The translations under genes and the position numbers were made by a program. 37,122 nt of DNA, from positions 1 through 37,122 of IMG/VR virus record IMGVR_UViG_3300030451_002463; one strand, written 5' to 3'. Every line of letters begins with the position of its first letter. Within the stretch, counting starts at the first letter, position 1. Below the pieces are notes generated by a model. The model made no database searches. It saw only the letters and a program-made list of their open reading frames with translations, and was not told the DNA's origin. The stretch is from a virus. Positions 25,827 to 37,122 of the stretch are shown piece by piece.

Positions 25827-25834
25827 GAGGATAA

Positions 25835-26008
25835 ATGAAAGAAGCAGTAATAGCAGTAGTAGAAAAACCAGTAGTAGGAGCTTGTTGCTCATTTAGTGGA
25901 GCACTAATTAATCACATGGAGATGTTAAGTCCATACTTAAACTTCGCATCGGTTTGCGTTGGTTTGCTTGTGGGTCTAATGACACTCAGAAAAATCTGGA
26001 AAGGATAA
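25835..26008 (+). CDS. Small membrane protein, holin candidate
   Basis: A 57-residue protein with a perfect AGGAGG upstream. It has one or two hydrophobic stretches (about 5-27, containing GACCSFSGALI, and 33-50, YLNFASVCVGLLVGLMTL) and a basic tail (RKIWKG), the classical tail of small holins. It sits in the lysis cluster after the lysozyme. The paired Cys (17-18) are unusual. Best holin candidate of the three small genes here, but not proven. Confidence 0.6.
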   Translation: MKEAVIAVVEKPVVGACCSFSGALINHMEMLSPYLNFASVCVGLLVGLMTLRKIWKG

Positions 26009-26014
26009 AATAAA

Positions 26015-26191
26015 ATGATAGCTGGACTAATAGTTAATTACCTTAAAGAAAACAAAGAAGAAATAATAGATGAAATCAACAAGAAGGTTAACATACCTCT
26101 TATATCAGAAGCAAAAGAAGAGGATATATTAAATTCATTGTTTGATGGACTAATGGAAATACTTGAAGGAATATTAGCTAAGAAAAAATAG
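26015..26191 (+). CDS. Small amphipathic protein in lysis cluster
   Basis: A 58-residue protein: a short hydrophobic N-terminus (MIAGLIVNYL), a charged middle (KENKEEIIDEINKKVNIPLI) and an amphipathic C-terminal helix ending KKK. Proteins of this NYLKENKEEI...KVNIP type seem familiar next to holin genes in aquatic phages, but no function is known to me. It starts 7 bases after the previous stop and closes the long structural/lysis block. Confidence 0.6.
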   Translation: MIAGLIVNYLKENKEEIIDEINKKVNIPLISEAKEEDILNSLFDGLMEILEGILAKKK

Positions 26192-26251
26192 TTTGGAATA
26201 AATCTACAGCTGTCGTAAATTCCTATAACAATTAACTTAGGAGTAGCGACT
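26192..26251 (+). promoter_or_regulatory. Leader before DNA-metabolism genes, possible promoter
   Basis: This gap separates the lysis genes from the recombination genes. It contains GGAAT (26195-26199) and ATTCC (26219-26223) flanking the palindrome ACAGCTGT (26206-26213). It also has a weak TTGGAA / 16-base spacer / TAAATT match to a sigma70 promoter and the extended ribosome element AGGAGTAGCGA (26239-26249). A hairpin or operator/promoter is plausible, but no single element is convincing. Confidence 0.35.
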
Positions 26252-26848
26252 ATGAGTAAGATAGATTTATCTAAACTAACGCAACCAACACCAGAAGATA
26301 GGATTAAACACAGACCTCAAAGAGGTAAGAATGGTAAAGAGTTTTTCATACAATACGTTGATGCACGATACTGCATGGATGTACTTGATGATGTGGTAGG
26401 TCCTGAAAACTGGAGTGATGATTACAAAGAAGTAAAGGGTTTGTTGATGTGTGGTGTATCCATCAATGTTAATGGAGTTAAAATAACAAAGTGGGACACT
26501 GGAACTGAAGCAAACTTTGAAGGAGAAAAGTCTATAGTTAGCGACTCATTTAAACGAGCGTGTGTTAAATGGGGTATAGCAAGGGATTTATACGATACTA
26601 AAAAGGCTGGGGGGAACGCTACTCCGAAACCACAAGGGGTTCCTAATGCCCCAGGTCCCCAGCCAGTCTCTCCAACAGCCAAACAAACAGAATACATACT
26701 AGACTTTGGTAAACATAGTGGCAAGTTTATCTCAGATGTTCCTCTTGATTATCTTAAATGGTTTTTAAATCAGAAGGATAATAAGAAGGATGAGAAAAAG
26801 TATAATGTATTTCTAAGTGAATACCACAAAAGAAAAACAAATGATTAA
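26252..26848 (+). CDS. Rad52-like single-strand annealing protein with DUF3820-like tail
   Basis: A 198-residue protein. Residues about 33-115 carry the Rad52/Rad22 core: YVDARYCMDVLDDVVGPENW, then GVSINVNGVKITKWDTGTEA, EKSIVSDSFKRACVKWGIAR and LY. Such proteins coat and anneal single-stranded DNA. A Gly/Pro-rich linker (120-143) leads to DFGKHSGKFISDVPLDYLKW (151-170), the DUF3820 motif also found at the C-terminus of exonuclease X. The exonuclease gene follows with an 8-base overlap, making a two-part recombination system. An AGGAGTAGC element precedes the start. Confidence 0.85.
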   Translation: MSKIDLSKLTQPTPEDRIKHRPQRGKNGKEFFIQYVDARYCMDVLDDVVGPENWSDDYKEVKGLLMCGVSINVNGVKITKWDTGTEANFEGEKSIVSDSFKRACVKWGIARDLYDTKKAGGNATPKPQGVPNAPGPQPVSPTAKQTEYILDFGKHSGKFISDVPLDYLKWFLNQKDNKKDEKKYNVFLSEYHKRKTND

Positions 26849-27575
26849 GCACGTTGAGGGAACTCGATATGGTAGGTTCTATGACATTGGGGATGGTATA
26901 TACGTCCCCAGTGTTACTACGGTTACTAGATATGGATGCCCTACACCTAACTACCTTCTAAAGTACATTGTGAACAACTCAAAGGGTGACTATGATAAAT
27001 ACCTAGAGACTAACTCTGAAGCACTTAGAGTGGGAACTGCTGTACACGATAATTGTGAGAAACTTTTGTTAGGTGAGGACTTACTTATTGAGAATGACCC
27101 AGAGGTACAGAAAGGTGTGATAAGTTTCTGTAAGTGGTATCAAGAGTATTTACCTAAAGTTATATCAGTAGAAGAGGTACTATACGCTAAGAACCATAGA
27201 CAAGGTAAGCTTATATGCCCTTTTGCAGGTAGATGTGACTTAGTGGTAGAGATGAACGATGAGACATGGATGATAGACCTCAAGACATCTAAGAGCTTAG
27301 AGGACTATACTTATGTAATTCAGCTTAGTATGTATAAAATGCTATGGGATATAAGACATCCAGAGAGACCAATAGATAGACTGGCTTTAGTACATTGTAA
27401 AAAGAACTTTATGGGTGCACAGCCTACAGCAAAAACAAAGCTTTTCAAAGAGGTAGAGTTTGATGAGAAGTCTGTGAAGGCAGCTGTAAGATTCTTTTAC
27501 AAGTACCAGGAAGCCTTTGACAATAAAGGAAACCTAAAAACACAACCAAAGTTACAGACTGAATTTAAACTATAG
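26841..27575 (+). CDS. RecB-like PD-(D/E)XK exonuclease
   Basis: A 244-residue protein with the Cas4/RecB-type nuclease motifs in order: GTAVHD (65-70), an acidic EE pair (111-112), GRCDL (130-134), IDLKTSK (145-151) and QLSMYKM (Q161, Y165). It should resect DNA ends to give single strands for the Rad52-like partner encoded just upstream. The ATG at 26841 overlaps the previous stop. A longer in-frame start at 26817 exists, but the sequence before MIKHVEG is simply the other gene read in a second frame. Confidence 0.85.
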   Translation: MIKHVEGTRYGRFYDIGDGIYVPSVTTVTRYGCPTPNYLLKYIVNNSKGDYDKYLETNSEALRVGTAVHDNCEKLLLGEDLLIENDPEVQKGVISFCKWYQEYLPKVISVEEVLYAKNHRQGKLICPFAGRCDLVVEMNDETWMIDLKTSKSLEDYTYVIQLSMYKMLWDIRHPERPIDRLALVHCKKNFMGAQPTAKTKLFKEVEFDEKSVKAAVRFFYKYQEAFDNKGNLKTQPKLQTEFKL

Positions 27576-27588
27576 GAGTAGCGATGAA
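27574..27588 (+). repeat. 15-bp ribosome-site repeat, left flank of methyltransferase
   Basis: AGGAGTAGCGATGAA contains the ribosome site, start codon and second codon start of the methyltransferase. The same 15 bases occur at 28464-28478 at the next gene start, so the methyltransferase is bounded by a perfect direct repeat. Confidence 0.9.
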
Positions 27589-28471
27589 TATTTTAAGTTT
27601 ATTTAATGGGATGAGTACAGGGCATACAGCTTTAGATAATGTAGGAATTAAAGTAGGTAAATATTATTCATCTGAAATAAAACCTGCAGCTATAAAATTA
27701 ACACAACACCATTATCCTGATACAATACAATTAGGAGATGTAACTAAATGGAAAGAATGGGATATTGATTGGGAATCAATAGATATGGTACTTAGTGGTA
27801 GTCCTTGTCAAGATTTGTCACAGATGGGAAAAATAAGTCACAAACATCAGAAGGGTTTAGATGGTAATCGTAGTAGTTTGTTTTGGGTGTTTGTAGATAT
27901 TCTAAATCATATTAAAGAATTAAATCCGAAAGTCCTATTTTTGCAAGAAAATGTAGGCTCTGCACCTAAAAAAGATGTAGGAATTATGTCAAGAGCATTA
28001 GGCGTATATCCAGTTAGAATTAACTCTAAATTAGTGACTGCACAATTAAGAGATAGATATTATTGGACAAATATAAAAACAAAAAAAGATGGGTTTTTTG
28101 GAGATGTTGTAACAGATATTCCACAACCCAAAGATAAAAAAATATTATTAAAAGATATTTTGATAAGTGGAAATACAGATAGAGAAAAACATACTTGCTT
28201 GATGGAGCATTATATAAATGCCTATACTACTAAAGATGATAAATATTTAAAAAATTTTGAAAAATTTATAATTAAAAGACCAAGTGGTATGGTTACAATT
28301 ATTAAAGAAGAAGAGTGCTTAAGGTTGGTTAATAAAATAGAAATGTGTAGGTTACAAGGCTTCCCTGATAATTGGTGTGATACATTGTCATATAGAGATA
28401 CAGGTAGTTTGTTGGGTGATGGGTGGACACTACCAATCATAGAACATATATTTAGCTTTATAAAGGAGTAG
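27584..28471 (+). CDS. DNA cytosine-C5 methyltransferase (Dnmt3-like phage type)
   Basis: A 295-residue enzyme that would transfer methyl from S-adenosylmethionine to C5 of cytosine. Motif I is LSLFNGMSTGHTALDNVG (4-21). The catalytic PC is in SGSPCQDLS (Cys75), the ENV motif is at 122-124, and QLRDRYYW (154-161) is motif VIII. GFPDNW and LLGDGWTLPIIEH form the C-terminal motifs, all close to the Dnmt3-like phage subgroup. No restriction enzyme accompanies it, so anti-restriction or self-marking is likely. Its target is unknown. The gene is more AT-rich and Lys/Ile-rich than its neighbours and is bounded by 15-bp repeats, suggesting transfer as a cassette. Its stop TAG lies inside the next ribosome element. 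Confidence 0.9.
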   Translation: MNILSLFNGMSTGHTALDNVGIKVGKYYSSEIKPAAIKLTQHHYPDTIQLGDVTKWKEWDIDWESIDMVLSGSPCQDLSQMGKISHKHQKGLDGNRSSLFWVFVDILNHIKELNPKVLFLQENVGSAPKKDVGIMSRALGVYPVRINSKLVTAQLRDRYYWTNIKTKKDGFFGDVVTDIPQPKDKKILLKDILISGNTDREKHTCLMEHYINAYTTKDDKYLKNFEKFIIKRPSGMVTIIKEEECLRLVNKIEMCRLQGFPDNWCDTLSYRDTGSLLGDGWTLPIIEHIFSFIKE

Positions 28472-28478
28472 CGATGAA
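28464..28478 (+). repeat. 15-bp ribosome-site repeat, right flank of methyltransferase
   Basis: Identical to 27574-27588. Here it supplies the stop codon of the methyltransferase (TAG at 28469-28471) and the ribosome site and start of the replication gene (ATG 28474). Confidence 0.9.
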
Positions 28479-29157
28479 CGATTATATAGTAATACCAGGC
28501 AGTATTTTAAGGGATGATAACCTTACCTATATGCAGAAGCTTATACTAGCTAAAATCACTAATTTAGATAACGATAAGGGGTGTTTTGCAACCAACAAAT
28601 ACTTTGCAAGACTATTATCTACATCTATAAATAGTGTATCAAAGACAATAAACCAGTTAAAAAGTATGGGATTAATTGAAGTAGAAATAACAAACAATAC
28701 AGACAGAAGTATAACTCTCGCCAAAAAGTGTAGGGGGGATGTCGTAAAAGTTGAGGGGGGGTCGCCTAAAAGTGTAGGGTCTCCCGATACTATTAATATA
28801 GATACTAATATAGATAATAATAAAATATATAAAAGTTTTATTGATTGGTGGAAATTATATGACAAAAAAGTTGGCAAGGACAAGGCTCTTAAGTTCTGGA
28901 CTAAGAAACTTGACCAGTCTCTAGTGGATGATATTATGAACCACACCAAGCGTTATGTAAAAGCTACTGATAAGCAGTACAGAAAGAATCCATACACTTA
29001 CCTGTACAATAGTTCATGGGAAGATGAGATAATGAACGAGGTAGAGGAAGTAAAGTCAAATCCACTAGAAGACCAAAAAAGATTAAGGCTATACAATCAA
29101 ATGAACAATACAGACTTTCAATCAATAGAGGAAGCAAGAGCTCATGCCAATGGTTAA
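28474..29157 (+). CDS. Helix-turn-helix replication initiator-like protein (lambda O / DnaD-like role)
   Basis: A 227-residue protein. Residues about 6-75 (IPGSILRDDNLTYMQKLILA, CFATNKYFARLLSTSINSVS, KTINQLKSMGLIEVE) form a winged helix-turn-helix of the type found in phage replication proteins. A low-complexity linker (about 82-125) follows. The C-terminal part (FIDWWKLYDKKVGKDKALKF, then KNPYTYLYNSSWEDEI) matches the partner-binding end of such proteins. The linker DNA carries iteron-like repeats and an AT-rich tract, so the gene probably contains its own origin. No phage helicase, primase or polymerase was found, so it would recruit host replication proteins. Its ATG lies in the AGGAGTAGCGATGAA repeat. 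Confidence 0.8.
   Translation: MNDYIVIPGSILRDDNLTYMQKLILAKITNLDNDKGCFATNKYFARLLSTSINSVSKTINQLKSMGLIEVEITNNTDRSITLAKKCRGDVVKVEGGSPKSVGSPDTINIDTNIDNNKIYKSFIDWWKLYDKKVGKDKALKFWTKKLDQSLVDDIMNHTKRYVKATDKQYRKNPYTYLYNSSWEDEIMNEVEEVKSNPLEDQKRLRLYNQMNNTDFQSIEEARAHANG
28718..28850. other. Candidate replication origin: three iterons plus AT-rich tract
   Basis: Three imperfect repeats lie head to tail at 28718-28741, 28742-28761 and 28762-28786, each with TCG, an A-run, GTGTAGGG or GTTGAGGG, and a G-run. They are followed by an almost pure A/T stretch (28787-28850) that includes TAATATAGATA twice (28794-28804 and 28806-28816, 12-base period). Iterons next to an AT-rich unwinding element inside the linker of the initiator gene is the lambda O layout. 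Confidence 0.6.
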
Positions 29158-29551
29158 ACTAGGTGATGCTATGCGACCACTTACAAGTAAGTTTGATATT
29201 GATTTAAGCTTAGGAGAGAAGTATGAAGACTCTCTTGCTCAGATATTAACCATATCCAAGATAGAAGTTAAAGCAGAAATAGATAAGTGGAGAGATACAG
29301 GTAACATAGCTATAGAGATTAGATGTAATGGAAAGCTATCTGGATTATCTGTAACTAAAGCAGACCACTGGTGTCATGTTTTATCGCACAAGAATGAAAT
29401 TAAAATGATATTAATATTCCCTATAGAAGAACTAAAAAGAATAGTTAGGGAGCTAGTAGACAAAAAAGAAGCTAAGGTAGTTATGGGTGGTGATAATAAT
29501 AAATCACAGCTCGTACTGGTACCCTTAGATAAACTGAAAGGAGTAGCATGA
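29144..29551 (+). CDS. Small PD-(D/E)XK-like nuclease candidate
   Basis: A 135-residue protein. The pattern FDIDLSLGEKYEDSLAQIL, IEVKAEIDKWRDTGNIAIEI, GKLSGLSVTKADHWCHVL and IFPIEELKRIVREL resembles a phage family with a PD-(D/E)XK fold. In it, an Asp/Glu helix is followed by an E-x-K strand, a T-G-N-x-x-x-E strand and S-G-x-x-x-x-x-A-D-x-W. It may process DNA ends or junctions. It overlaps the initiator gene by 14 bases, and ATG 29150 is an alternative start. Its C-terminal KGVA is encoded by the ribosome element of the next gene. Confidence 0.6.
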   Translation: MPMVKLGDAMRPLTSKFDIDLSLGEKYEDSLAQILTISKIEVKAEIDKWRDTGNIAIEIRCNGKLSGLSVTKADHWCHVLSHKNEIKMILIFPIEELKRIVRELVDKKEAKVVMGGDNNKSQLVLVPLDKLKGVA

Positions 29552-29646
29552 AATACAGAGATGAATTAGAGTTAATAATAATGATAGGAATGCTAGTGGC
29601 AGGAACTATTGGGTTAGTAATGTTAGTGAGGTCAGCATGGATATAA
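29548..29646 (+). CDS. Small single-pass membrane protein
   Basis: A 32-residue product whose middle (LIIMIGMLVAGTIGLVMLV) is one transmembrane helix, with a charged N-terminus (MKYRDE). Its ATG overlaps the previous stop (ATGA) and follows the AAAGGAGTAGC element at the standard spacing, which supports a real gene despite its size. It overlaps the next start by 10 bases. Function unknown. Confidence 0.65.
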   Translation: MKYRDELELIIMIGMLVAGTIGLVMLVRSAWI

Positions 29647-29993
29647 TAAAAAGAATTGAAGAGATATATCCAGAGTGTACAGATGCCTTAATGAATAACT
29701 TTGATAGAGCATACGACCTTTGGGCGAGAAAACAGTCAGACTACGGTGACTCTAATATCCGACTTGGGCTTGACCTAAACTCCTCCTCATCCGAGCGTTC
29801 GCAAAACAATAGGTTAGCCCAGTTGGGTGTAGTCATAAGAATGAATGACAAAATTAGCAGATTAATAAACCTGTATAAGAAAAACATGGAAGATACATCT
29901 GCTGTAACAGAATCAATAGAAGACACAGCTCTTGATATAATGAACTACGCTAATATGCTGATGGTATTGCGTCAAAATAAGTGGGGTAAATAA
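29637..29993 (+). CDS. Nmad1 (DUF1599)-like protein
   Basis: A 118-residue protein. The segments ARKQSDYGDSNIRLGL, AQLGVVIRMNDKISRLINLY and TESIEDTALDIMNYANMLMV match DUF1599, also named nucleotide modification associated domain 1, an all-helical domain found near nucleotide-modifying enzymes in phages. A role with modified or scavenged nucleotides is suggested by the family name only. No thymidylate synthase-like gene is present here. It ends one base before the next start. Confidence 0.75.
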   Translation: MDIIKRIEEIYPECTDALMNNFDRAYDLWARKQSDYGDSNIRLGLDLNSSSSERSQNNRLAQLGVVIRMNDKISRLINLYKKNMEDTSAVTESIEDTALDIMNYANMLMVLRQNKWGK

Positions 29994-29994
29994 A

Positions 29995-30273
29995 ATGACA
30001 ATTAAAGACTTTAGAAAACTAGATAATGGTGGCAAGGTAAAGGGTTTCATGACTATCGTAACAAACGAGGGTTTTGAAATGAAGAACTTTAAGCTGATAG
30101 AAGGAGCTAATGGTTTATTTGTTGGTGCACCTAGCCAGAAAGGTACTGACAAAGAAGGAAACGAGAAGTGGTATGATATGGTGTGGATTCCTAAAGAACT
30201 AAATGAACAGCTTGTAGACCTTGTTGCTAATGAGGTAGACATGAACCAAGAGTCAAACCCTGTACCATTTTAA
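29995..30273 (+). CDS. SpoVG-like protein
   Basis: A 92-residue protein. MTIKDFRKLDNGGKVKGFMT, FEMKNFKLIEGANGLFVGAP, SQKGT and KWYDMVWIPKELNEQL follow the SpoVG pattern: VxxFxLIxGxxGLFVxxPSxK, then a short loop and DIVxP. SpoVG-family proteins bind nucleic acid in bacteria, and phages carry related copies of uncertain role. It sits in the DNA-metabolism block, and its stop overlaps the next ATG (TAATG). Confidence 0.75.
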   Translation: MTIKDFRKLDNGGKVKGFMTIVTNEGFEMKNFKLIEGANGLFVGAPSQKGTDKEGNEKWYDMVWIPKELNEQLVDLVANEVDMNQESNPVPF

Positions 30274-30533
30274 TGTGGACAGGGACAACCACGAGAGGTA
30301 AAGTTGTGTATGTACAGAGAGAAGAACTAGAAAAAGCACACTCTAAAATAATGGAGCAAAATAAACAGCTCTTGAAAAAGATAAGTGAAATGTCTATATT
30401 ATGGGAGCAAACATTAAACATACTTCTGTCATATAATCCGAAACTAGCAGAACAAACTAAAGAAGAGTTGGAGAAGATTAATGAACAGACAAGCGATATC
30501 AACGATAAATCCAGAAGCGATATTTCTGGATGA
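30273..30533 (+). CDS. Small coiled-coil protein, unknown
   Basis: An 86-residue, mainly helical product. The segment REELEKAHSKIMEQNKQLLK is a clear coiled coil, and the C-terminus is Glu/Asn/Asp-rich. Translation is coupled to the SpoVG-like gene through TAATG, and it overlaps the next gene by 53 bases in a different frame. No family recognised. Confidence 0.55.
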   Translation: MWTGTTTRGKVVYVQREELEKAHSKIMEQNKQLLKKISEMSILWEQTLNILLSYNPKLAEQTKEELEKINEQTSDINDKSRSDISG

Positions 30534-30744
30534 TGCTTTTGACCAAGCAATCCTAGGCGTAGCAAATGACGCTGATGGAGACCTTGTTGCAGTATATAGT
30601 CAGAAAGAATGTATTAGCATTTTAAACGTAGATGGCATAGAAGACGAGGACTTTGATTTTTTATGGGCTACGTTTATAGAAACATCCAGGGGTAAGGGAG
30701 CTCCAATAATATTCACACATCTATGGGAATTTTGTGAACACTAA
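30481..30744 (+). CDS. Conserved hypothetical phage protein
   Basis: An 87-residue acidic protein. NPEAIFLDDAFDQAILGVAN, VAVYSQKECISIL and KGAPIIFTH match a short protein often found in phage early regions (PEA-x-x-LDGFD-x-A-x-x-GI, then VYDY-x-K-x-I-x-x-L). Its function is unknown to me. GGAGA precedes the ATG by a usable distance. The following GTG start lies inside its last codons. Confidence 0.7.
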   Translation: MNRQAISTINPEAIFLDDAFDQAILGVANDADGDLVAVYSQKECISILNVDGIEDEDFDFLWATFIETSRGKGAPIIFTHLWEFCEH

Positions 30745-30925
30745 AACATGGAAGCTTATACAATACTGGAGAAATAAATATAACTCAACACCTAATGGCT
30801 GGGCAGTAGCATATATGGTAGGTGAGGAGTATGTATCAGATGTAAGTAAGCAATCACCATCAAAAAGAAATGTCAAGAGTAACAAGAAGACTAAAGAACC
30901 AGCCTTTGACTTGCAAGATGTGTAA
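30734..30925 (+). CDS. Small hypothetical protein
   Basis: A 63-residue protein starting at GTG within the end of the previous gene. The N-terminal half is aromatic and folded-looking (WKLIQYWRNKYNSTPNGWAV), the C-terminal half basic and disordered. Coupling to the upstream gene is the main support. It overlaps a Cys-pair gene downstream by 56 bases. No family recognised. Confidence 0.5.
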   Translation: MNTKTWKLIQYWRNKYNSTPNGWAVAYMVGEEYVSDVSKQSPSKRNVKSNKKTKEPAFDLQDV

Positions 30926-31055
30926 AACCTACACGCTTGGTAAGCCAGTTTACGAGTATATGTTTTGGGGTGACCCAGAGCCAATAAAAATATGCCAAAA
31001 ATGTGCAAAGAGAGAGCATGGAAGTAGAAATAAAAGACCACTGCCAGAATTATAG
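30870..31055 (+). CDS. Small zinc-ribbon-like protein
   Basis: A 61-residue basic protein with CKMC (15-18) and CQKC (42-45), a two-knuckle Cys4 arrangement likely to hold one zinc ion. Between them is a short aromatic loop (YEYMFWGDPEPIKI). The ATG has only a weak A-rich upstream site and lies inside the previous frame. The Cys pattern supports a real protein; a nucleic-acid-binding role is inferred. Confidence 0.55.
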   Translation: MSRVTRRLKNQPLTCKMCKTYTLGKPVYEYMFWGDPEPIKICQKCAKREHGSRNKRPLPEL

Positions 31056-31158
31056 GGAAGCAGAGATGCTTTCAAGTCGAAAAGGAGAATCGAGGAAGGG
31101 CAAATTGTTAACAGGAGCTTGTTATAATTTGGTGCAAACCTTCCTCTTGACTCCATGA
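31018..31158 (+). CDS. Possible 46-residue protein overlapping an RNA hairpin
   Basis: The frame starts at ATG 31018 inside the previous gene and ends in ATGA with the next gene's start (31155), the coupling typical of this genome. The product (MEVEIKDHCQNYREAEMLSS start) has no recognised features. Its second half coincides with a long inverted repeat, so these bases could instead be a structured RNA. Both readings are open. Confidence 0.35.
   Translation: MEVEIKDHCQNYREAEMLSSRKGESRKGKLLTGACYNLVQTFLLTP
31075..31152. other. Long imperfect RNA hairpin of unknown role
   Basis: The main stem is GAGGAAGG (31092-31099) with CCTTCCTC (31139-31146), perfect 8 bp. Inside, AAATT (31102-31106) pairs AATTT (31126-31130) and TAACA (31109-31113) pairs TGTTA (31120-31124) around a GGAGCT loop. 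Outside, AGTCGA (31075-31080) can pair TTGACT (31147-31152) with one G-T pair. No T-tract follows on the plus strand, so it is not an ordinary terminator. It does not fit a tRNA. Confidence 0.55.
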
Positions 31159-31403
31159 TAACAATGTTATCCATATACGCCCCACTGATTTTCACACTAC
31201 ACGCATCACACGAACTATATAATTTTAATAACCCCAGAATTGACCCCAGAGGTACTTACATTCTACTTCAATGGGAGCCAGATGATTTTTACGCAGATGT
31301 AAATAATATTTATAGACCATACTTAAAGGCTAAAGCAGATAACTACTTTAAAAGAAAAGCAAGGATAAAATATTGGCAAAGAAAACAGCTAGGCAGAGAG
31401 TAG
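31155..31403 (+). CDS. Hypothetical protein
   Basis: An 82-residue protein with a hydrophobic N-terminus (MLSIYAPLIFTLHA from the second ATG at 31164) and a charged aromatic C-terminal half (WEPDDFYADVNNIYRPYLKA, then KARIKYWQRK). No ribosome site precedes either ATG, so translation is probably coupled through the ATGA at 31155. The NinG-like gene starts inside its end. No family recognised. Confidence 0.55.
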   Translation: MITMLSIYAPLIFTLHASHELYNFNNPRIDPRGTYILLQWEPDDFYADVNNIYRPYLKAKADNYFKRKARIKYWQRKQLGRE

Positions 31404-31771
31404 TAAAAAGACTGGATGATGTTACATCCAAATATATTAGAGAGCGTGATGCAAAGTGCGTCCAATGCCAGACCACTGAAAACCTCACTAATGGGCACGT
31501 CTTCTCCAGAAGGTCGTACTCAACGAGGTGGGACATATCTAAGGATGGTAATTGTCATACTCAGTGCTGGGGCTGTAACTTTAAGCATTCTAAAGATAAC
31601 TACGATTATTTTAAATGGTATGTAGATACATTTTCTAAAGATAGGTTTGAGAACCTACGCTTTAGATACAAAGAGACTAAGAAGTATACTACAATAGAAT
31701 TAGAGGAGTTGTATGAGGAACTAACCTTAGCATATAAGGAGTTACTAAGTGAAAACCAGACTAACCAATAA
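31373..31771 (+). CDS. NinG-like HNH recombination nuclease
   Basis: A 132-residue protein. CVQCQTTENLTNGHVFSRRS, STRWDISKDGNCHTQCWGCN and SKDNYDYFKWYV give the paired Cys and NGH...N...C-x-x-C layout of NinG/Rap-like HNH proteins, which act on branched recombination intermediates in lambda. It starts at TTG with AAGGA about 9 bases upstream (no ATG is available near the conserved start). In context it could resolve structures made by the Rad52-like and exonuclease pair. Confidence 0.78.
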   Translation: MAKKTARQRVVKRLDDVTSKYIRERDAKCVQCQTTENLTNGHVFSRRSYSTRWDISKDGNCHTQCWGCNFKHSKDNYDYFKWYVDTFSKDRFENLRFRYKETKKYTTIELEELYEELTLAYKELLSENQTNQ

Positions 31772-31955
31772 AGATAGGATAATTGATTCATTAGACGCTA
31801 CCCTAAGAGACCTAGAGATAAGGGCTTGTTGGGTCGGTTTAAAGGCTACAGAGATGAACTACACGCAGAAGCTAGAGTACGTTATGTCATTCTGGAGCGT
31901 AAGCAAAGAAACTGCAGAGAAGGCATTGTATAGTGACAAAACTATCAGCCAGTGA
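31749..31955 (+). CDS. Small hypothetical helical protein
   Basis: A 68-residue protein starting at GTG inside the end of the NinG-like gene, with AAGGAG upstream. It is helical, with LEYVMSFWSVSKETAEKALY possibly forming a short helix-turn-helix-like unit at the C-terminus. The next gene begins at a GTG inside its end. A transcription or DNA-binding role is only a possibility. Confidence 0.5.
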   Translation: MKTRLTNKDRIIDSLDATLRDLEIRACWVGLKATEMNYTQKLEYVMSFWSVSKETAEKALYSDKTISQ

Positions 31956-32364
31956 TAAGGGATATGTAGGAGAGCTATTCTGTGTCTTTTATTTGAACTT
32001 GCACAACTACTCAGCAATGATAGTTCCAAATCGTAGACCCTACGATGTAGCGATGGAACACGATGGAAAACTTATTAAGGTGCAAGTAAAGACCAGTACC
32101 TATAAGAACCATGAGAAGAAGGGATATGATGCTGGGTACTGCTATAGCATTAACAGACGTAGTAGGATTACAAAGAACAATAAAGTCTTCCACTACTATG
32201 AGAATTACAATGATTTTGATTGTGATATATTTGCGTTTGTTCAGCCCAGACTTTATAAGATTGCGTTCTTCCATGTAAAGCAGATTGATGTGAAGTACAG
32301 AAAGATATTAAGACCAGAACACTTTGAGGATTATCCGATTGAGAAGGCTTTGGAGTATATGTAA
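31933..32364 (+). CDS. PD-(D/E)XK endonuclease-like protein
   Basis: A 143-residue protein starting at GTG. KGYVGELFCVFYLNLH (conserved Glu), NRRPYDVAMEHDGKLIKVQV and KTS carry the E...P-x-D...(Q/E)-V-K-T pattern of the PD-(D/E)XK_5 family, related to intron endonucleases and resolvases. The rest is basic and aromatic (GYCYSINRRSR, CDIFAFVQPRLYKIAF). It likely cuts DNA, perhaps junctions or host DNA. It is the last plus-strand gene before the convergent terminator. Confidence 0.75.
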   Translation: MTKLSASDKGYVGELFCVFYLNLHNYSAMIVPNRRPYDVAMEHDGKLIKVQVKTSTYKNHEKKGYDAGYCYSINRRSRITKNNKVFHYYENYNDFDCDIFAFVQPRLYKIAFFHVKQIDVKYRKILRPEHFEDYPIEKALEYM

Positions 32365-32388
32365 AAAAGGGAGCCGAAGCCCCCTTTT
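32365..32388. terminator. Bidirectional terminator between convergent operons
   Basis: AAAAGGGAGC (32365-32374) pairs with GCCCCCTTTT (32379-32388) around a CGAA tetraloop, with one A-C mismatch. TTTTCT ends the plus-strand copy, and the A-run on the left becomes a U-run for the minus-strand transcript. It lies directly after the plus-strand stop at 32364 and just beyond the last minus-strand gene, so it can stop both. Confidence 0.88.
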
Positions 32389-32411
32389 CTATTGCTGATT
32401 TGTGAACCTAG

Positions 32412-32558
32412 TTATTCTCGTGCATCTATACACTTAACACATAGAGGTAAATCAAAACCATCATCCTCAGTTTCAAGTATAGTATACCACTCAACATCAT
32501 CCTTAAGCTCTTCACAATCAAAGCATCTTTCAAAAGCAGGAAGTATAGTTAAAGCCAT
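32412..32558 (-). CDS. Small Cys4 zinc-ribbon-like protein
   Basis: A 48-residue acidic protein with CFDC (12-15) and CVKC (40-43), a likely zinc knuckle pair. The minus-strand ATG (32558) overlaps the upstream stop as TAATG and follows GGAAGGAG. It is the last gene of the inverted cassette, next to the bidirectional terminator. Function unknown. Confidence 0.65.
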   Translation of the reverse strand: MALTILPAFERCFDCEELKDDVEWYTILETEDDGFDLPLCVKCIDARE

Positions 32559-32749
32559 TATTTATCTCCTTCCACTAAGATTATGCTAATCTTATAAGCC
32601 TCAGAGTCATCATGATTTATACCTTGTTCATATCCATTTTTAAATGCAGTTATCTGCTCTAGGTTATAGTTTTGCATAGGTTGTAGGGTCATGTATTCAA
32701 CGTATCCACCACCAGCTTGTTTTTGTAGAACTTGTATTGCGTATTTCAT
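32558..32749 (-). CDS. Small hypothetical protein of inverted cassette
   Basis: A 63-residue protein: MKYAIQVLQKQAGGGYVEYM followed by helical TAFKNGYEQGI and a C-terminal strand (AYKISIILVEGDK), giving a compact alpha/beta look. The start is joined to the upstream stop by TAATG and carries the AAAAGGAGTGGC element. No family recognised; probably an early modulator of host or phage functions. Confidence 0.65.
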   Translation of the reverse strand: MKYAIQVLQKQAGGGYVEYMTLQPMQNYNLEQITAFKNGYEQGINHDDSEAYKISIILVEGDK

Positions 32750-32764
32750 TATGCCACTCCTTTT
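32747..32764 (-). promoter_or_regulatory. Type B ribosome element, copy 3
   Basis: On the plus strand this reads CATTATGCCACTCCTTTT. On the minus strand it is AAAAGGAGTGGCATAATG, combining ribosome site, stop of one gene and start of the next. Exact copies lie at 32923-32940 and 33258-33275. Confidence 0.85.
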
Positions 32765-32925
32765 TTATGTTTAAAAAATTTTTTGCAAATTTCATCCATG
32801 TCATTTTGTGAAAGAAAGATTGCATTTGTACACGACCCATCAACCAATTCTCTAATGATAAAACAGCCAGATTGTTCTTCAAGAATTATGTCGTTGCGTT
32901 TTTTTTCAATTGCTAATAGTTCCAT
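32749..32925 (-). CDS. Small hypothetical protein ending KKGVA
   Basis: A 58-residue protein (MELLAIEKKRNDIILEEQSG start), alpha/beta-looking, with two Cys. Its last codons AAA GGA GTG GCA are the ribosome element of the next gene, so the C-terminal KGVA is fixed by regulation and perhaps not by function. Start and stop both use TAATG joints. No family recognised. Confidence 0.65.
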   Translation of the reverse strand: MELLAIEKKRNDIILEEQSGCFIIRELVDGSCTNAIFLSQNDMDEICKKFFKHKKGVA

Positions 32926-32940
32926 TATGCCACTCCTTTT
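32923..32940 (-). promoter_or_regulatory. Type B ribosome element, copy 2
   Basis: Eighteen bases identical to those at 32747-32764 and 33258-33275. It drives the gene starting at 32925. Confidence 0.85.
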
Positions 32941-33260
32941 TTTGTTCTGATTTGTTTTTGAGCTAAATAAGATGCCTTTAAGATGTTTTTCAAATCATCT
33001 GTTGTTAGCGTTATATTACTTGCTATACAGCTATGAGGATGACATTGAATTATCTCTACATACCTACCACAATCACTCATTCTAGCCTCTACCTCTGTGT
33101 GTTGGTCTTTATATTCTACCATACCACACTTATACTCAACAGATTTTCTGGCTATCACATTTTCTTCAGGTGGGTACAATTTATTATGACCTTCTCCAAC
33201 TAAGTCATTAAGGTTTTCACCATCAAAGTTATGAATGTTGAATTTAGTTTTATTTTCCAT
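32925..33260 (-). CDS. Hypothetical protein of inverted cassette
   Basis: A 111-residue acidic protein with central Cys and His residues (VEYKCGMVEYKDQHTEVEAR, YVEIIQCHPHSC) that might bind a metal, and a C-terminal helix (TDDLKNILKASYLAQKQI). It ends KKGVA for the same reason as its downstream neighbour. TAATG joints lie at both ends. I do not recognise the family. Confidence 0.65.
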   Translation of the reverse strand: MENKTKFNIHNFDGENLNDLVGEGHNKLYPPEENVIARKSVEYKCGMVEYKDQHTEVEARMSDCGRYVEIIQCHPHSCIASNITLTTDDLKNILKASYLAQKQIRTKKGVA

Positions 33261-33275
33261 TATGCCACTCCTTTT
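33258..33275 (-). promoter_or_regulatory. Type B ribosome element, copy 1
   Basis: Eighteen bases identical to the two downstream copies. It encodes the C-terminal KGVA plus stop of the ribbon-helix-helix protein and the start of the 111-residue protein. Confidence 0.85.
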
Positions 33276-33394
33276 AAGTAATTATGTATTATAAAGTTAA
33301 TGTGCTTACCTACACTACGATGGTTCTTTTTAGCATCTTTATCAAGAGCTTTTTTAAGTTCTACATCCATCATTACATTTACGTTCTTAGTCAT
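33260..33394 (-). CDS. Ribbon-helix-helix (Arc/CopG-like) DNA-binding protein
   Basis: A 44-residue protein. VNVMMDVELKKALDKDAKKN followed by HRSVGKHINFIIHNYL has one short strand and two helices in the right lengths for a ribbon-helix-helix dimer, with the G-K-x-I turn before the second helix. As the only clear small transcription-factor fold in the genome, it is the best candidate regulator of the divergent region at 34205-34373. It starts and ends in TAATG joints and ends KGVA. Confidence 0.72.
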   Translation of the reverse strand: MTKNVNVMMDVELKKALDKDAKKNHRSVGKHINFIIHNYLKGVA

Positions 33395-33588
33395 TATTTT
33401 GACCCCCTTGTTAGTTTGATAAATTCAATGTGGCACTCTCTTAATGTGTAGTCTCTATAGTGCTCAGCTTTGAACCTATCTCTTATTATCCAACTCATAT
33501 GTTCCATCTCTGGTAAGAACTCCATAGTATAACCAAGCTCATACCCACCATCTAGTAACCAGTCCTGTGCATAGTCTTTAAGTTTCAT
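33394..33588 (-). CDS. Small hypothetical protein of inverted cassette
   Basis: A 64-residue acidic/aromatic protein (MKLKDYAQDWLLDGGYELGY start, WIIRDRF middle). Its ATG overlaps the preceding stop as ATGA and follows GGGGGTAGC, a variant of the cassette's ribosome element. No family recognised. Confidence 0.6.
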   Translation of the reverse strand: MKLKDYAQDWLLDGGYELGYTMEFLPEMEHMSWIIRDRFKAEHYRDYTLRECHIEFIKLTRGSK

Positions 33589-33926
33589 TTGCTACCCCCT
33601 TTGTATTTTGTAATTGCTTTTATAATTCTTTTAAGCATTTTTATTCTAATGTCTCTAGCAGACAAACTCTTTCTCCACTCCCATGCAAAATTATGTTTAA
33701 GCTCTGCATTGAATAGAAATTTTAAAACTTCTAAATCATTAACTGGAAGATGTAAAAGATATAATTGTCTATTGCTGATATCATCAAAAGTCCATTCACA
33801 ATTTTCTGTGAAATGTGAACTGCCATCCAATAATAATCTTAAATACTTACAGCTTTGAATTAGCTCACTAATTTCACTTAAACCTTCTCTTGTTAATTTT
33901 ATTGTTAGTTTATCATTGTCTTTCAT
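33585..33926 (-). CDS. Hypothetical protein of inverted cassette
   Basis: A 113-residue protein. The acidic/Leu-rich N-terminal half (LTREGLSEISELIQSCKYLR) and strongly basic C-terminal helix (RDIRIKMLKRIIKAITKYKG) suggest an alpha-helical fold. It begins the run of seven genes with overlapping stops and starts, after a 76-base gap containing two competing hairpins. The start carries the AAAAGGAGTAGCAATG element. No family recognised. Confidence 0.62.
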   Translation of the reverse strand: MKDNDKLTIKLTREGLSEISELIQSCKYLRLLLDGSSHFTENCEWTFDDISNRQLYLLHLPVNDLEVLKFLFNAELKHNFAWEWRKSLSARDIRIKMLKRIIKAITKYKGGSK

Positions 33927-33942
33927 TGCTACTCCTTTTGTT
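33921..33942 (-). promoter_or_regulatory. Type A ribosome element shared by two minus-strand starts
   Basis: Twenty-two bases here are identical to 34183-34204. Both place AAAAGGAGTAGCAATG at a start codon. The match extends beyond what ribosome binding alone needs. Confidence 0.8.
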
Positions 33943-33955
33943 AATTATTTCCAGA

Positions 33956-33990
33956 CCCTAGGGTTTCTAGGGAGCCCATTTAGGACTCCC
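33956..33990 (-). promoter_or_regulatory. Two mutually exclusive hairpins in a leader
   Basis: CCCTAG (33956-33961) can pair with CTAGGG (33967-33972). GGGAG (33970-33974) can instead pair with CTCCC (33986-33990), with two further pairs inside. The two share bases 33970-33972, so only one forms at a time. They lie in the only sizeable gap of the inverted cassette, upstream of the gene starting at 33926. No U-run follows either. A translational or attenuation control is possible. Confidence 0.45.
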
Positions 33991-34002
33991 CTCATCAGTG
34001 GA

Positions 34003-34188
34003 TTATATTCTTGGAAATACCCCCCCACAATCATACGAGTCATTATCGCAGTCTGGACATTTATGGGAAATATTGAAATAATCCCCACCCATTGATACCC
34101 ATTTACTCAATTCTGCATCTGTGAAGAATTTATATCCTTTTCCATCACAAGTTTTACAATCTGCTTGTTTATTTAATTTCTTTTTCAT
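34003..34188 (-). CDS. DnaJ-zinc-finger-like small Cys-rich protein
   Basis: A 61-residue protein with CKTCDGKGYKF (CxxCxGxG knuckle) and CPDCDN plus a further Cys (YDCGGVF), resembling one half of a DnaJ-type zinc finger. It is first in the inverted cassette, starting just inside the divergent regulatory region with the 22-base shared ribosome element. Likely zinc-binding; role in host or phage control is inferred from position only. Confidence 0.7.
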   Translation of the reverse strand: MKKKLNKQADCKTCDGKGYKFFTDAELSKWVSMGGDYFNISHKCPDCDNDSYDCGGVFPRI

Positions 34189-34204
34189 TGCTACTCCTTT
34201 TGTT
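34183..34204 (-). promoter_or_regulatory. Type A ribosome element, first cassette gene
   Basis: Identical over 22 bases to 33921-33942. It reads AAAAGGAGTAGCAATG on the minus strand and sets the start at 34188. Confidence 0.8.
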
Positions 34205-34373
34205 TGTTAAACTTTGTTAGTTTATTTATTTGAACGCTACACTAAGTTAAGGACTTCCAGGAAATTATGCAAGAAAAAAAAAGAATTTTCTTTAATCCTC
34301 CTTATAAAAAAAGTTTATTTACTTACTTTTAAATAAGGTGATTTGTATCACTTTTTTGTATTATACTATGCGT
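34205..34373. promoter_or_regulatory. Divergent regulatory region with operator-like palindromes
   Basis: This AT-rich stretch separates divergent genes and holds no gene. GTGAT-TTGT-ATCAC (34338-34351) is a perfect inverted repeat ending 10 bases upstream of TATACT (34362-34367), a -10-like box facing right. For the left-facing genes, TTGCAT (plus-strand 34267-34272) and TAACTT (34244-34249) are spaced 17 bases, a weak promoter match, with the palindrome TTCCAGGAA (34255-34263) between them. AAAGAATTTTCTTT (34280-34293) is a further palindrome. Confidence 0.6.
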
Positions 34374-34649
34374 ATGATAGAAGTATGTTTATTTGCACTG
34401 GGCGTTGGTACTGGCTATGGCTTGTCCACGCTCTCTATTTATATGGGTAACAAAATGGCTGATAATATGGTACAGAAATTCACAGCACCAGTCCAGACCG
34501 AAGAGGAGCCTTCTATCGACACAGAAGTGAACCCCATATATGACTTTTCTGCCTATGAAGAAACACTAAACAACTACACTAACATAGAACCATTACAAGA
34601 CAAAGCAAACACCAACCCAGATGATGATGATTTTAAGCCACTTAACTAG
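34374..34649 (+). CDS. Small membrane-anchored protein with acidic tail
   Basis: About 91 residues: a hydrophobic N-terminal segment (MIEVCLFALGVGTGYGLSTL) that looks like a membrane anchor, then an acidic Asn/Asp-rich tail. No ribosome site precedes ATG 34374 or the in-frame ATG 34368, and TATACT ends at 34367, so the mRNA may start at or near the start codon (leaderless). An extension to GTG 34338 would run through the operator and was rejected. It is the first gene of the long plus-strand block. Confidence 0.6.
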   Translation: MIEVCLFALGVGTGYGLSTLSIYMGNKMADNMVQKFTAPVQTEEEPSIDTEVNPIYDFSAYEETLNNYTNIEPLQDKANTNPDDDDFKPLN

Positions 34650-34650
34650 C

Positions 34651-34755
34651 ATGAAATACAAGCTAAAGCAACGAATAATCGATAGCATTGCATGGGGTAC
34701 TACATTACTTGTAAACCTTGTAATAACTAGTAGAAAAACAAGCATAAAGGATTAA
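34651..34755 (+). CDS. Tiny membrane protein
   Basis: A 34-residue product with a basic N-terminus (MKYKLKQR) and a central hydrophobic helix (IAWGTTLLVNLVI), then a basic end (RKTSIKD). The ATG lies one base after the previous stop. AAAGGA near its end serves the next gene. No family recognised. Confidence 0.5.
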   Translation: MKYKLKQRIIDSIAWGTTLLVNLVITSRKTSIKD

Positions 34756-34756
34756 T

Positions 34757-35362
34757 ATGAAACTAAGAAAAAAGCGTGGTAAGGTTAAAGGATTTGAAGT
34801 TAAGAAGGGTAGAGTAAAGTTTAAACCAGATTACATGATTGAGAAAGATAAGCAAGATAAATTTGAGAGAGCTTATGAAGTAGATTCTGGTGCCTTATTT
34901 AGAGAGGGAAAGATAAAAGTTATTAAGAAAAGAGGTGAGGAATACAACCCATCAAAAGAAGAAGATTTAGAGAGATTAAAAAAGAATATAGTAAAGCCAT
35001 CTGCTAATCAACAAAGGACAAAGGAGCTTATAAGAAAAAGACGTAAGGCAGAGCAAGATAATAAGAAGGCTAATAATGAAAGAGTCAATTTGAGTAAAAT
35101 TAGAAAAGATGCAATGAAATATGACCCTAAATCTGGTAAAATAGTGCCAAGAAAGAAGTATGTAGCTAAGGAGGGTGTAGACCCTACAAAGCCACCCAAA
35201 GCTCCAATCATTAAAGCTGGAAGAAAAATGGAGATAGAAGGAAGAAAAAGAAATCTTGCAAAGAAAGATTCAAAGAGACTTTCAACAAGAAAGTATGCTA
35301 CTAGTGAAGAATTGCGTAGAGTAGATAAATTAAAAAAATATAAAGTAAAGAAAGGTTACTAG
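34757..35362 (+). CDS. Lys/Arg-rich basic protein of terminase region
   Basis: A 201-residue, extremely basic, mostly low-complexity product (MKLRKKRGKVKGFEVKKGRV start, VKPSANQQRTKELIRKRRKA middle). It probably binds nucleic acid and may be disordered alone. It is preceded by AAAGGA at good spacing and lies three genes before the small-terminase-like gene. A role in packaging or DNA condensation is possible. No family recognised. Confidence 0.62.
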   Translation: MKLRKKRGKVKGFEVKKGRVKFKPDYMIEKDKQDKFERAYEVDSGALFREGKIKVIKKRGEEYNPSKEEDLERLKKNIVKPSANQQRTKELIRKRRKAEQDNKKANNERVNLSKIRKDAMKYDPKSGKIVPRKKYVAKEGVDPTKPPKAPIIKAGRKMEIEGRKRNLAKKDSKRLSTRKYATSEELRRVDKLKKYKVKKGY

Positions 35363-35559
35363 TGACAGCATCAAGGCTAGATAAGTACCTTATTAAAATC
35401 CTACGAGGATATAAGAGGACTAACATGATAATAGAGAATGCGTGTGGAAGTGCGTATGAAATAGGCTTTAAAAATGGAATGATAGAGGGAGCTAAGGTTA
35501 ATGGAAAAAAGTATGCAAATAAGGTCAAGAAAGCCCTCAAAGGACAATACAAGTTATAA
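35362..35559 (+). CDS. Small hypothetical basic protein
   Basis: A 65-residue protein starting at GTG that overlaps the preceding stop (TAGTG). A helical core (YLIKILRGYKRTNMIIENAC) is followed by GFKNGMIEGAKVNGKKYANK. No recognised family. Coupled translation supports a real gene. Confidence 0.55.
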   Translation: MTASRLDKYLIKILRGYKRTNMIIENACGSAYEIGFKNGMIEGAKVNGKKYANKVKKALKGQYKL

Positions 35560-35683
35560 GGGTAACTACCACTATAGTGAGACTAGTGAACCTATAGCAA
35601 AGAAGATAAGACAATATTTTAAGAAGGAATGGATATGCCAAACTATACAGAAGAAGCACCAGACTACAAGCCAGAAGAAGTAA
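35501..35683 (+). CDS. Possible small basic protein
   Basis: A 60-codon frame overlapping both neighbours. It covers the gap 35560-35634 that would otherwise be empty, and AAGG lies very close to its ATG. ATG 35513 is an alternative. The product is Lys/Ser/Gln-rich with an aromatic middle (SYKGNYHYSETSEPIAKKIR). Support is weak and it may be chance. Confidence 0.3.
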   Translation: MEKSMQIRSRKPSKDNTSYKGNYHYSETSEPIAKKIRQYFKKEWICQTIQKKHQTTSQKK

Positions 35684-35997
35684 GGAATGATGGCAGAGAT
35701 GCCAAGGGTAGACTAATGAAGGGTCATACTGCTAATCCTAATGGCAGACCTAAGAAGGGGAAGTCTACAGCTGAACAGTTTAGAAGCAATCCAAAGGCAT
35801 TAGATATTTTAAACAAGGTAATACAAATAGCATCAACACTAGGCTCAGAGGATGAGCATAAGGATGCAACAAGCTGTGCAAAGGTCGTAGTAGATAAGAT
35901 TATACCGACACTAAAGGCACAGGATATATCAATAGAGTCAGATTCAGTTACTGGCTTTGTTGTATTACCTAAAGAAGAACCATCACCGAAGGAGTAA
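35635..35997 (+). CDS. Small terminase-like protein
   Basis: A 120-residue protein. The N-terminal GRLMKGHTANPNGRPKKGKS matches the DUF5681-type start seen in small terminase subunits and related DNA-binding phage proteins. The helical rest (AEQFRSNPKALDILNKVIQI, then AKVVVDKIIPTLKA) could form the oligomeric ring. AGAAGGA ends 6 bases before ATG 35635, whereas ATG 35629 would touch it, so the later start was chosen. It lies just upstream of the large terminase. It would recognise phage DNA for packaging. Confidence 0.68.
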   Translation: MPNYTEEAPDYKPEEVRNDGRDAKGRLMKGHTANPNGRPKKGKSTAEQFRSNPKALDILNKVIQIASTLGSEDEHKDATSCAKVVVDKIIPTLKAQDISIESDSVTGFVVLPKEEPSPKE

Positions 35998-35999
35998 AG

Positions 36000-36137
36000 A
36001 TGTCTTTATATGAGAACATAAACAGACGTAAAAAGCTAGGAATAAGTAGACCTAAGAGTAAGTCTACAATCTCTAAGAAGGCGTATGCAAATATGAAGAA
36101 GGGATTTCCTAAGGTTAAGCTAAGAAAGAAAAAATGA
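36000..36137 (+). CDS. Tiny basic protein between terminase genes
   Basis: A 45-residue Lys/Arg-rich product (MSLYENINRRKKLGISRPKS start, VKLRKKK end). AAGGAG lies 6-11 bases before the ATG, and its stop overlaps the large terminase start as ATGA. Small proteins of this YxNINxRKKxGxSRxKxxST kind are common beside phage packaging genes, but the function is unknown to me. Confidence 0.7.
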   Translation: MSLYENINRRKKLGISRPKSKSTISKKAYANMKKGFPKVKLRKKK

Positions 36138-37122
36138 CAGATGTAATCTGGAAACCTCATGAAGGTGCCCAGACATTTGCCTTACAAGTCGGAGATGTAT
36201 ATGAGTGCTTGTATGGTGGTGCAAGAGGTGGAGGTAAGACAGATTGTGGAATGGCGTGGCTGTTAAGAGCTACAGACAATCCAGATGCTAGAATGCTAGT
36301 AATTAGAAGAAATGCTGATGACCTTGCAGACTGGGTAGATAGAGCACATAAGATGTACCCTCATGCAAAGGTAACTGGGAAACCAGCAACAATAAAGTTT
36401 CCCTCTGGAGCAATAATAAGATGTGGGCATTTAAAAGATGAGAGTGCCTACACAAAGTATCAGGGACATGAGTACCAGAGAATATTAATAGAGGAGCTCA
36501 CCCAGATACCATCAGAAGAAAGCTATTTGAAATTGATATCAAGTTGTAGAAGCACAATAAAGGGACTAGAGCCTAAGGTGTTCTGTACAGCAAATCCAGG
36601 TGGTAAAGGTCATCAATGGGTAAAGAGACGCTTCATACAAGGTCATAAGCCTAAGGTGGCGTTTAAAGAGGGTAATTCAAGGTATAGAATGTATATACCA
36701 GCGACGGTAGACAATAACCCTACTCTCATGGAAAATGACCCAGATTACGTTGATTTCCTAGAGAATCTACCAGAGCCATTACGCTCAGCGTGGAGACATG
36801 GAGACTGGGATATATTTGCTGGTCAGTATTTTACTGAATGGAACCCTAAGATGCACGTCATACCAGAGGATGTAGCTAAGAAGTTCGGATATGGTCAGAG
36901 CTTTAATAAAAAGTACATCGGTATTGACTGGGGTTTTAGTGCACCATTTGCGTGTATATGGATAGAGGTAACACCAGACAACAGAGTATTCTGCTATAGG
37001 GAGCTATATGGAACAGAAAAGCACCCTTCAGAGTGGGGACAAGAAATAATGAATATGACTGGAGATGAGGAAATATTTATGAGTCTAGGTGACCCTTCAA
37101 TGTGGGCACGAAACCCAATGAG
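36134..37122 (+). CDS. terL: Terminase large subunit, N-terminal part (continues at 2-454)
   Basis: The packaging motor that translocates DNA into the prohead and cuts it. The ATPase domain has Walker A GGARGGGKT (28-36), Walker B RILIEEL (116-122) and coupling motif TANPGGKGHQW (152-162). The nuclease domain starts at YIGIDWGFSAPFACIW with Asp265 as the first acidic residue. The gene runs off the window after MSLGDPSMW and resumes in frame at the left end. The joined product is about 465 residues. The start overlaps the tiny upstream gene (ATGA). Confidence 0.92.
   Translation, partial: MTDVIWKPHEGAQTFALQVGDVYECLYGGARGGGKTDCGMAWLLRATDNPDARMLVIRRNADDLADWVDRAHKMYPHAKVTGKPATIKFPSGAIIRCGHLKDESAYTKYQGHEYQRILIEELTQIPSEESYLKLISSCRSTIKGLEPKVFCTANPGGKGHQWVKRRFIQGHKPKVAFKEGNSRYRMYIPATVDNNPTLMENDPDYVDFLENLPEPLRSAWRHGDWDIFAGQYFTEWNPKMHVIPEDVAKKFGYGQSFNKKYIGIDWGFSAPFACIWIEVTPDNRVFCYRELYGTEKHPSEWGQEIMNMTGDEEIFMSLGDPSMWARNPM
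37078..37122. repeat. Terminal direct repeat, right copy (circle closure)
   Basis: This copy matches positions 1-45 except at 37099 and 37114, both silent third-codon changes in the terminase. It shows that the sequence wraps. Confidence 0.9.

Follow-up and report, generated by a model that had tools for sequence, protein, structure and literature searches.

How is a row of very small phage genes held in place while its members are replaced? The question is raised by a block of eight genes on the minus strand (32412–34188) of a viral record from IMG/VR (IMGVR_UViG_3300030451_002463), whose 37,122 bases were analyzed and are referred to here as the window. Comparison with related phages makes it likely that the block serves as a site of accessory-gene exchange, with transcription running from a single divergent control region to a single terminator, and that it is composed of a backbone and swapped cargo genes, with shared start joints between the genes and a hammerhead-ribozyme-like RNA behind the first cargo gene.

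Gene turnover and the shared start joint

Relatives were taken from the best 80 of 118 sequences in a terminase scan of viral_contigs. In nine of them and in the window, enough of the block is present for comparison: seven blocks are whole (window, L034, L037, L043, L055, L062, and L046) and three partial (L036, L045, and L035). Variable cargo was found at a fixed place with conserved flanks around it: the flank at 31373–32393 is 92–98% identical in L034, L037, L043, and L055 and ∼75% identical in L062 and L046, and the gene lists vary. The ten blocks encode 75 proteins of 35 families, 21 of which occur once (a cut gene of L035, counted in the wrong frame, is included in both the 75 and the 21; by eye it is a relative of an L036 gene). 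Three families recur: one of 64 residues in nine blocks, a ribbon-helix-helix family in all seven whole ones, and a membrane protein of 32 residues in seven, the window and L043 not being among them. Families may also change position: F06 occupies the second place in L037, the third in L043, and the first in L036 and L045. To the question posed by the first-pass annotation of the window, whether this locus is hypervariable or fixed among relatives, the answer is that it is hypervariable, with a small fixed backbone.

The eight reading frames of the window (61, 113, 64, 44, 111, 58, 63, and 48 residues) lie where that annotation had placed them. The backbone would consist of gene 3 (33394–33588; 64 residues, in 9 of the 10 blocks), the ribbon-helix-helix gene 4 (33260–33394; 44 residues), the short gene in slot 7 (32558–32749; 63 residues, its own family in four of the seven whole blocks and the short family F07 in the remaining three), and the last gene, gene 8 (32412–32558; 48 residues with two Cys pairs, its own family in five of the seven whole blocks and a different Cys-pair family in two), with the cargo swapped between them. 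Genes 5 (32925–33260; 111 residues) and 6 (32749–32925; 58 residues) are cargo found in the window block only, and for gene 2 (33585–33926; 113 residues), likewise cargo, no relatives were found in the family comparison over ten blocks or by searches. Gene 1 (34003–34188; 61 residues with two Cys pairs) has a homologue in the block of L043 and a weak, DnaJ zinc-finger-like match below the cut-off. A structure prediction for the 64-residue protein from eight sequences was discarded (pLDDT 55), and a tblastn search with this protein in INPHARED gave no match.

The earlier assignment of gene 4 to the ribbon-helix-helix proteins held, as PF01402 was matched with 22.1 bits (curated cut-off, 20.5) and PHROG 582 with an E-value of 7.8e-6, which places the protein with the CopG/Arc type. 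Beyond this domain, no function was recognized when all eight proteins of the block were searched against PHROGs and Pfam and six (all but those of genes 4 and 6) against PADLOC. CopG/Arc-type proteins are often antitoxins or repressors, and the presence of the gene in every whole block would agree with a toxin–antitoxin or small-repressor locus in which the neighbors act as toxins. Such a locus is improbable: the gene after the ribbon-helix-helix gene varies by block (F16, F07, F07, F23, F05, F05, and F32), so that there is no fixed downstream toxin partner, and the PADLOC scan of the six proteins gave no notable match. As a member of an exchange site, the ribbon-helix-helix protein may be a repressor of the block.

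Genes 2–8 are connected by the predicted stop–start joints (ATGA once, at 33585/33588, and TAATG five times), and one-base overlaps join five of the seven neighbor pairs in the block versus 6 of 31 plus-strand pairs in the gene list of this analysis. The joint, AAAGGAGTRGCA(TA)ATG, is common to genes that are unrelated to each other and doubles as the coding end (KGVA or GGSK) of the preceding gene. Exact copies of AAAGGAGTRGCA precede five of the eight starts, and a copy with two mismatches precedes a sixth. The joints of genes 1 and 2 (both AAAGGAGTAGCA) are at 34189–34200 and 33927–33938, and those of genes 5, 6, and 7 (all AAAGGAGTGGCA) at 33263–33274, 32928–32939, and 32752–32763, where they encode the KGVA of genes 4, 5, and 6, respectively; all are on the minus strand. 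Where the joint overlaps the stop of the gene ahead, it is translated as the last codons of that gene, and this is why 12 of the 75 proteins in the ten blocks end in KGVA and 5 of 75 in GGSK. Similarity over the 20 bases before the start averaged 10.6/14 for the eight genes of the block versus 7.6 for 29 plus-strand starts, and none of 2,000 random sets of eight, drawn from all 37 starts, reached the value of the block. A search for the joint followed by ATG returned 32 stretches with one match each and was uninformative.

Homology between blocks tends to break off near the starts. Of 356 interior ends of pairwise homology, 249 lie between −25 and +12 relative to a start (random mean 62, maximum 81 in 500 draws), and after binning 121 of 189 do so; the ends are not independent, each block pair being counted in both directions. 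Selection against broken genes and exchange at the joint could explain ends at gene borders equally well, and the data do not separate the two. It is also quite possible, without being the expected outcome, that the block is an ordinary compact early operon, in which stop–start overlaps couple translation, a uniform Shine-Dalgarno sequence and spacer are selected for even translation, turnover proceeds by any route, and the joint has no role in exchange. Stop–start overlaps are common in phages, including the plus strand of the window, and breaks at gene borders can be explained by selection alone; moreover, the joint is used by some plus-strand genes, AAAGGAGTRGCA having one exact copy outside the block in the window (29537, plus strand) and the joint occurring outside the block in several relatives. 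Less easily accommodated by such an operon is that the conserved joint extends past the Shine-Dalgarno sequence (TRGCA before ATG), is far more uniform than the starts of the other genes in the window, is common to genes without shared ancestry, and recurs in relatives. Cassette exchange fits the uniform joint at least as well as dosage control does.

For an exchange site, the joint would combine a Shine-Dalgarno sequence, spacer, and ATG with the last codons and stop of the preceding gene, and cargo ending in it would be terminated and coupled to the next gene at once. The shared joints could in addition serve as short homology for exchange, usable by the phage's Erf/Rad52-type annealing protein and exonuclease; machinery of the Erf/Rad52 type tolerates short homology. 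The plus-strand region 26252–31771 of the window encodes an annealing protein of this type, an exonuclease, a C5 cytosine methyltransferase (27584–28471), a replication initiation protein, and a NinG-like endonuclease.

A hammerhead-like RNA between genes 1 and 2

The sole long gap inside the block, the interval between genes 1 and 2, holds a hammerhead-ribozyme-like RNA of type I (33946–34004, minus strand) that was absent from the first-pass annotation and for which the cut is expected between 33954 and 33953. Directly after the stop codon of gene 1 (34005–34003), the minus strand reads UCCA CUGAUGA, a nine-pair hairpin, A, GAAACC CUAG GGUC, and UGGA. At 33954–33998, this corresponds to the core order of a type I hammerhead with open stem I (CUGANGA…GAAA…UH), and the lowest-energy fold of the region is the three-helix hammerhead junction.

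The three helices are also borne out by paired changes. In seven copies of the window type (window, L043, L128, L237, L239, and two in L179), 112 of 112 cells were paired and five pairs had changed on both sides, which was reached in 0 of 500 shuffles; the pairs of stem III are invariant, and the search patterns had prescribed both core and stem III. L129, L034, and L055 were omitted from this count because MAFFT had shifted them by one column in stem II. Five copies on four other contigs, with neither the window nor L043 among them, were used to build a covariance model, which was applied to 203,419 bases from 14 sources of the phage group and matched six of them (rough E-values: L043, 2.6e-18; window, 1.8e-17; L034, 1.7e-11; L035 and L055, both 2.4e-11; L046, 4.2e-4). 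All six matches are inside the block, on the sense strand, and 3′ of a cargo gene. Likewise, the pattern CTGANGAN{8,38}GAAACC occurred once in five of ten whole records, always within the block, and in none of the other five.

Several observations weigh against a self-cleaving RNA. In the window type, a surplus A separates stem II from GAAA, a departure from the strict core, although a viroid hammerhead with an extra base in its core has reportedly been described; the contact between loop II and tail, present in many other copies, is missing from the window type. No hammerhead was found in L037, L062, or the partial blocks L036 and L045, and the CTGANGAN pattern read backwards gave one match each in 2 of the 10 whole records. 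L046, which has a canonical core without the extra A in the same kind of place, has a different lowest-energy fold, by 0.8 kcal/mol. Rfam gave no hammerhead match in the window, nor did its listings for the 56 kb and 55 kb searched show one for any of the other copies. As a test it is weak in this case, because the L046 match was missing from the listing of the 55-kb search: submitted alone, the L046 stretch matched HH9 (21.4 bits) and the RAGATH-1 hammerhead (23.2 bits), below thresholds and beside two unrelated weak matches. Finally, all support for cleavage comes from comparison and folding of sequences.

The extra A, the lack of an Rfam match, and the missing loop contact would also be expected if the region were an RNA stability element, a processing site, or a decayed, inactive hammerhead rather than a ribozyme. 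Some hammerhead-like RNAs were reported to be inactive by Perreault et al. (PMC3088659). Such an explanation is nevertheless unlikely: the bases usually conserved in the core are all kept in the window and L043 while stem II has changed on both sides, and the relative L046 has the canonical core at a like position. A terminator is also unlikely, because the hairpins are not followed by a T run. A role of stem III as a palindrome acting as a dimer was dropped, as the relaxed scan described below shows many tetraloops, and a DNA search with the hammerhead region returned one 28-base match (E 0.7).

The region is most plausibly read as a ribozyme, and the RNA would most likely cut the transcript between genes 1 and 2. 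The cut would give the downstream messenger a 27-nucleotide leader with a ready joint and the upstream one a folded 3′ end, and it would uncouple gene 1 from the remaining genes. Of the almost fixed-ratio translation chain proposed earlier for the block, the stop–start joints are real; a fixed ratio is doubtful, notably for gene 1, because the first two genes are separated by a predicted self-cleaving RNA and the joints are sites of cargo turnover.

Similar RNAs are not confined to this phage group. The exact core was matched seven times in viral_contigs, once in the L043 contig, and all seven matches are able to form stem I, with four letter sets (UCCA/UGGA, UCCAA/UUGGA, CCAUA/UAUGG, and UCGCA/UGCGA). 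In genome_contigs, it was matched five times, and only L141 has stems (210–247; a canonical-core hammerhead on a contig of a Legionella metagenome assembly). A relaxed scan of viral_contigs, whose contigs are possibly near-duplicates of each other, gave at least 119 stretches. Repeated contigs (L001, L006, L027, L114–L127, L133, and L135), four stemless genome matches, contig-end matches, and identical sequences were removed, and 110 distinct instances were scored. Core and stem III CC/GG were preset in the relaxed patterns and are no independent evidence, and the shuffles ignore kinship.

Among the matches listed, to which all of the following counts refer, stem I was fully paired (5/5) in 63 of 110 instances (shuffled mean 9.6, maximum 19). 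The 77 instances with at least four of five stem I pairs were taken as structured, some of them still by chance (e.g., three TTTCG/GGGGA cases). Four or more complementary bases between loop II and tail were present in 54 of these 77 (shuffled mean 21.5, maximum 35). A position outside longer open reading frames, between a stop and a start on the same strand, was found for 51/77 with stem I versus 1/33 without, and all three helices appeared in the lowest-energy fold of 51/77 versus 0/33. Where it could be measured, stem I (as five pairs) started 0–4 nucleotides 3′ of the stop (50 of 64), and the next start lay 25–42 nucleotides 3′ of the cut (47 of 62). Many contigs of uncultured phages (L144–L255) have a hammerhead-like RNA directly 3′ of stop codons; in one common type, CUGAUGA is followed by an additional U, and loop II is complementary to the tail beyond stem I (UAGU/ACUA, UUGC/GCAA, GGU/ACC, or GAU/AUC). 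Tentatively, and with some doubt, it may be proposed that cargo gene, self-cleaving ribozyme, and start joint form a portable unit, a widespread punctuation system of uncultured phages that could be inserted into operons and cut free at the RNA level without a promoter or terminator of its own, and by which counter-defense genes like ArdC would travel.

Cargo, control region, and genome context

The first-pass annotation had suggested host-takeover or defense-countering functions. The accessory nature of the block and the ArdC genes in the blocks of relatives speak for this suggestion; in the block of the window itself, there is no ArdC gene and no recognized counter-defense domain (PHROGs and Pfam, all eight proteins; PADLOC, six of eight). 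The block of L034 encodes a protein with PF08401 and PF18818, the ArdC domains, and that of L055 a close homologue of it, so that the counter-defense gene is identified in relatives only (L034 by Pfam, L055 by homology); in both, the gene ahead of the hammerhead is of this one family. The block of L037 contains a DUF2958 protein. Pfam, applied to 69 proteins that are nearly all hammerhead neighbors, found ArdC three times (L176, L180, and L034) and the other listed families in one protein each. On L176 and L180, contigs outside this phage group, the ArdC gene is likewise associated with the RNA: that of L176 (1665–2666) has a hammerhead on both sides (1604–1646 and 2703–2745), and that of L180 has one before it (3268–3310) and another behind the following gene (4613–4655). 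The cargo is probably counter-defensive or host-directed, as judged by domains present in relatives only, and the window's own orphan genes may have a counter-defense function.

The divergent control region proposed at the upstream end of the block was found to be conserved among aligned relatives. It contains the inverted repeat GTGAT-N4-ATCAC (34338–34351), identical in 12 of 12 aligned sequences, which could, speculatively, be an operator; sites of this type are not rare by chance (1.17 expected, one mismatch allowed). A leader motif, CTTGCAT-N-AGCGTTCA (34231–34273, minus strand), is promoter-like and would act as promoter of the block, which may be expressed early. It is present as a single copy in the window (0 in 100 shuffles) and, among the loci, is restricted to this phage group. 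L055 has two copies. The second of these (4763–4805, minus strand), as well as a copy in L035 (507–549, minus strand), lies 3′ of the hammerhead and ahead of the next joint, in L055 as if the cargo had brought its own promoter-like stretch. At the other end, folding detected a terminator hairpin with a T run (32362–32391, minus strand). This terminator had been described as bidirectional, which is borne out only in part: the hairpin is strong when read in the sense direction of the block (−18.0 kcal/mol, z −4.3), whereas read in the opposite direction it is weak (z −1.7). A scan with a consensus terminator listed nothing in 31900–34900.

As had been noted, this is the only minus-strand block, which fits the skew of the window: GC and AT skew are negative only at 32–34 kb. 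The window is probably an almost complete genome, because its first and last 45 bases are 96% alike and the terminase gene leaves one end and enters the other. The two ends (1–45 and 37078–37122, 43 of 45 bases matching) lie inside the terminase gene and resemble a circularly permuted, near-complete genome with two strain variants. A protein of 2,425 residues (17564–24841, plus strand) had no Pfam match, and its gene contains a 33-base repeat at ∼20209–20371. INPHARED held no near DNA match to 20000–37122, and the terminase and capsid relatives in it were all less than 60% identical.

Comparison with known systems

The role of prokaryotic hammerheads, persistently linked to phages, was called an open question in a 2017 review (PMC6155905). 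The locus described here makes that role testable, because close relatives carry the same site, some with the ribozyme and some without it, and differ in cargo, so that the effect of cutting on the two adjoining messengers can be compared. The small genes beside such ribozymes and joints offer a route to unknown counter-defense genes, and the core variants missed by Rfam in the loci searched suggest that phage hammerheads are under-annotated.

Of the systems that resemble the joint, the Start-Associated Sequences of Cluster K mycobacteriophages (PMC3203893) also consist of one short sequence that includes a Shine-Dalgarno and recurs directly upstream of numerous small genes that are unrelated. 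The sequence is GGGATAGGAGCCC there and AAAGGAGTRGCA here, so that the joint does not conform to their consensus: it works alike but is no member. Unlike them, it also supplies the final codons and stop of the gene ahead of it and marks the limits of gene turnover. Short boundary sequences proposed for phage mosaicism (mentioned in PMC3029335) are similar in providing short homology at the borders of changing cargo; here, the border doubles as a translation joint, through which exchange would take place.

The closest precedent for the RNA is that of Perreault et al. 2011 (PMC3088659). Prophage hammerheads flank single genes or short blocks there, among them ardA in Agrobacterium tumefaciens, where the RNA was active when transcribed in E. 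coli; in three Legionella strains, ardA is immediately 3′ of the hammerhead. As here, the hammerhead adjoins small phage genes and an anti-restriction gene, and processing of polycistronic phage messengers was proposed. In contrast to that work, the gene is ArdC (PF08401 and PF18818; in relatives, the window block being without it) rather than ardA, the RNA stands directly behind the stop codon of cargo in an exchange site, and the sequences are mostly IMG/VR contigs. Core variants with activity are known from that study; those found here are different ones, having an extra A before GAAA or an extra U after CUGAUGA. A search of the literature by title (hammerheads with phages, ArdC, or metagenomes), most subscription journals being outside it, returned no description of such an arrangement. 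Thus, a hammerhead beside an anti-restriction gene is of a kind already known from Perreault et al., and what differs here is its association with ArdC, the exchange site, the placement at the stop codon, and the variants of the core.

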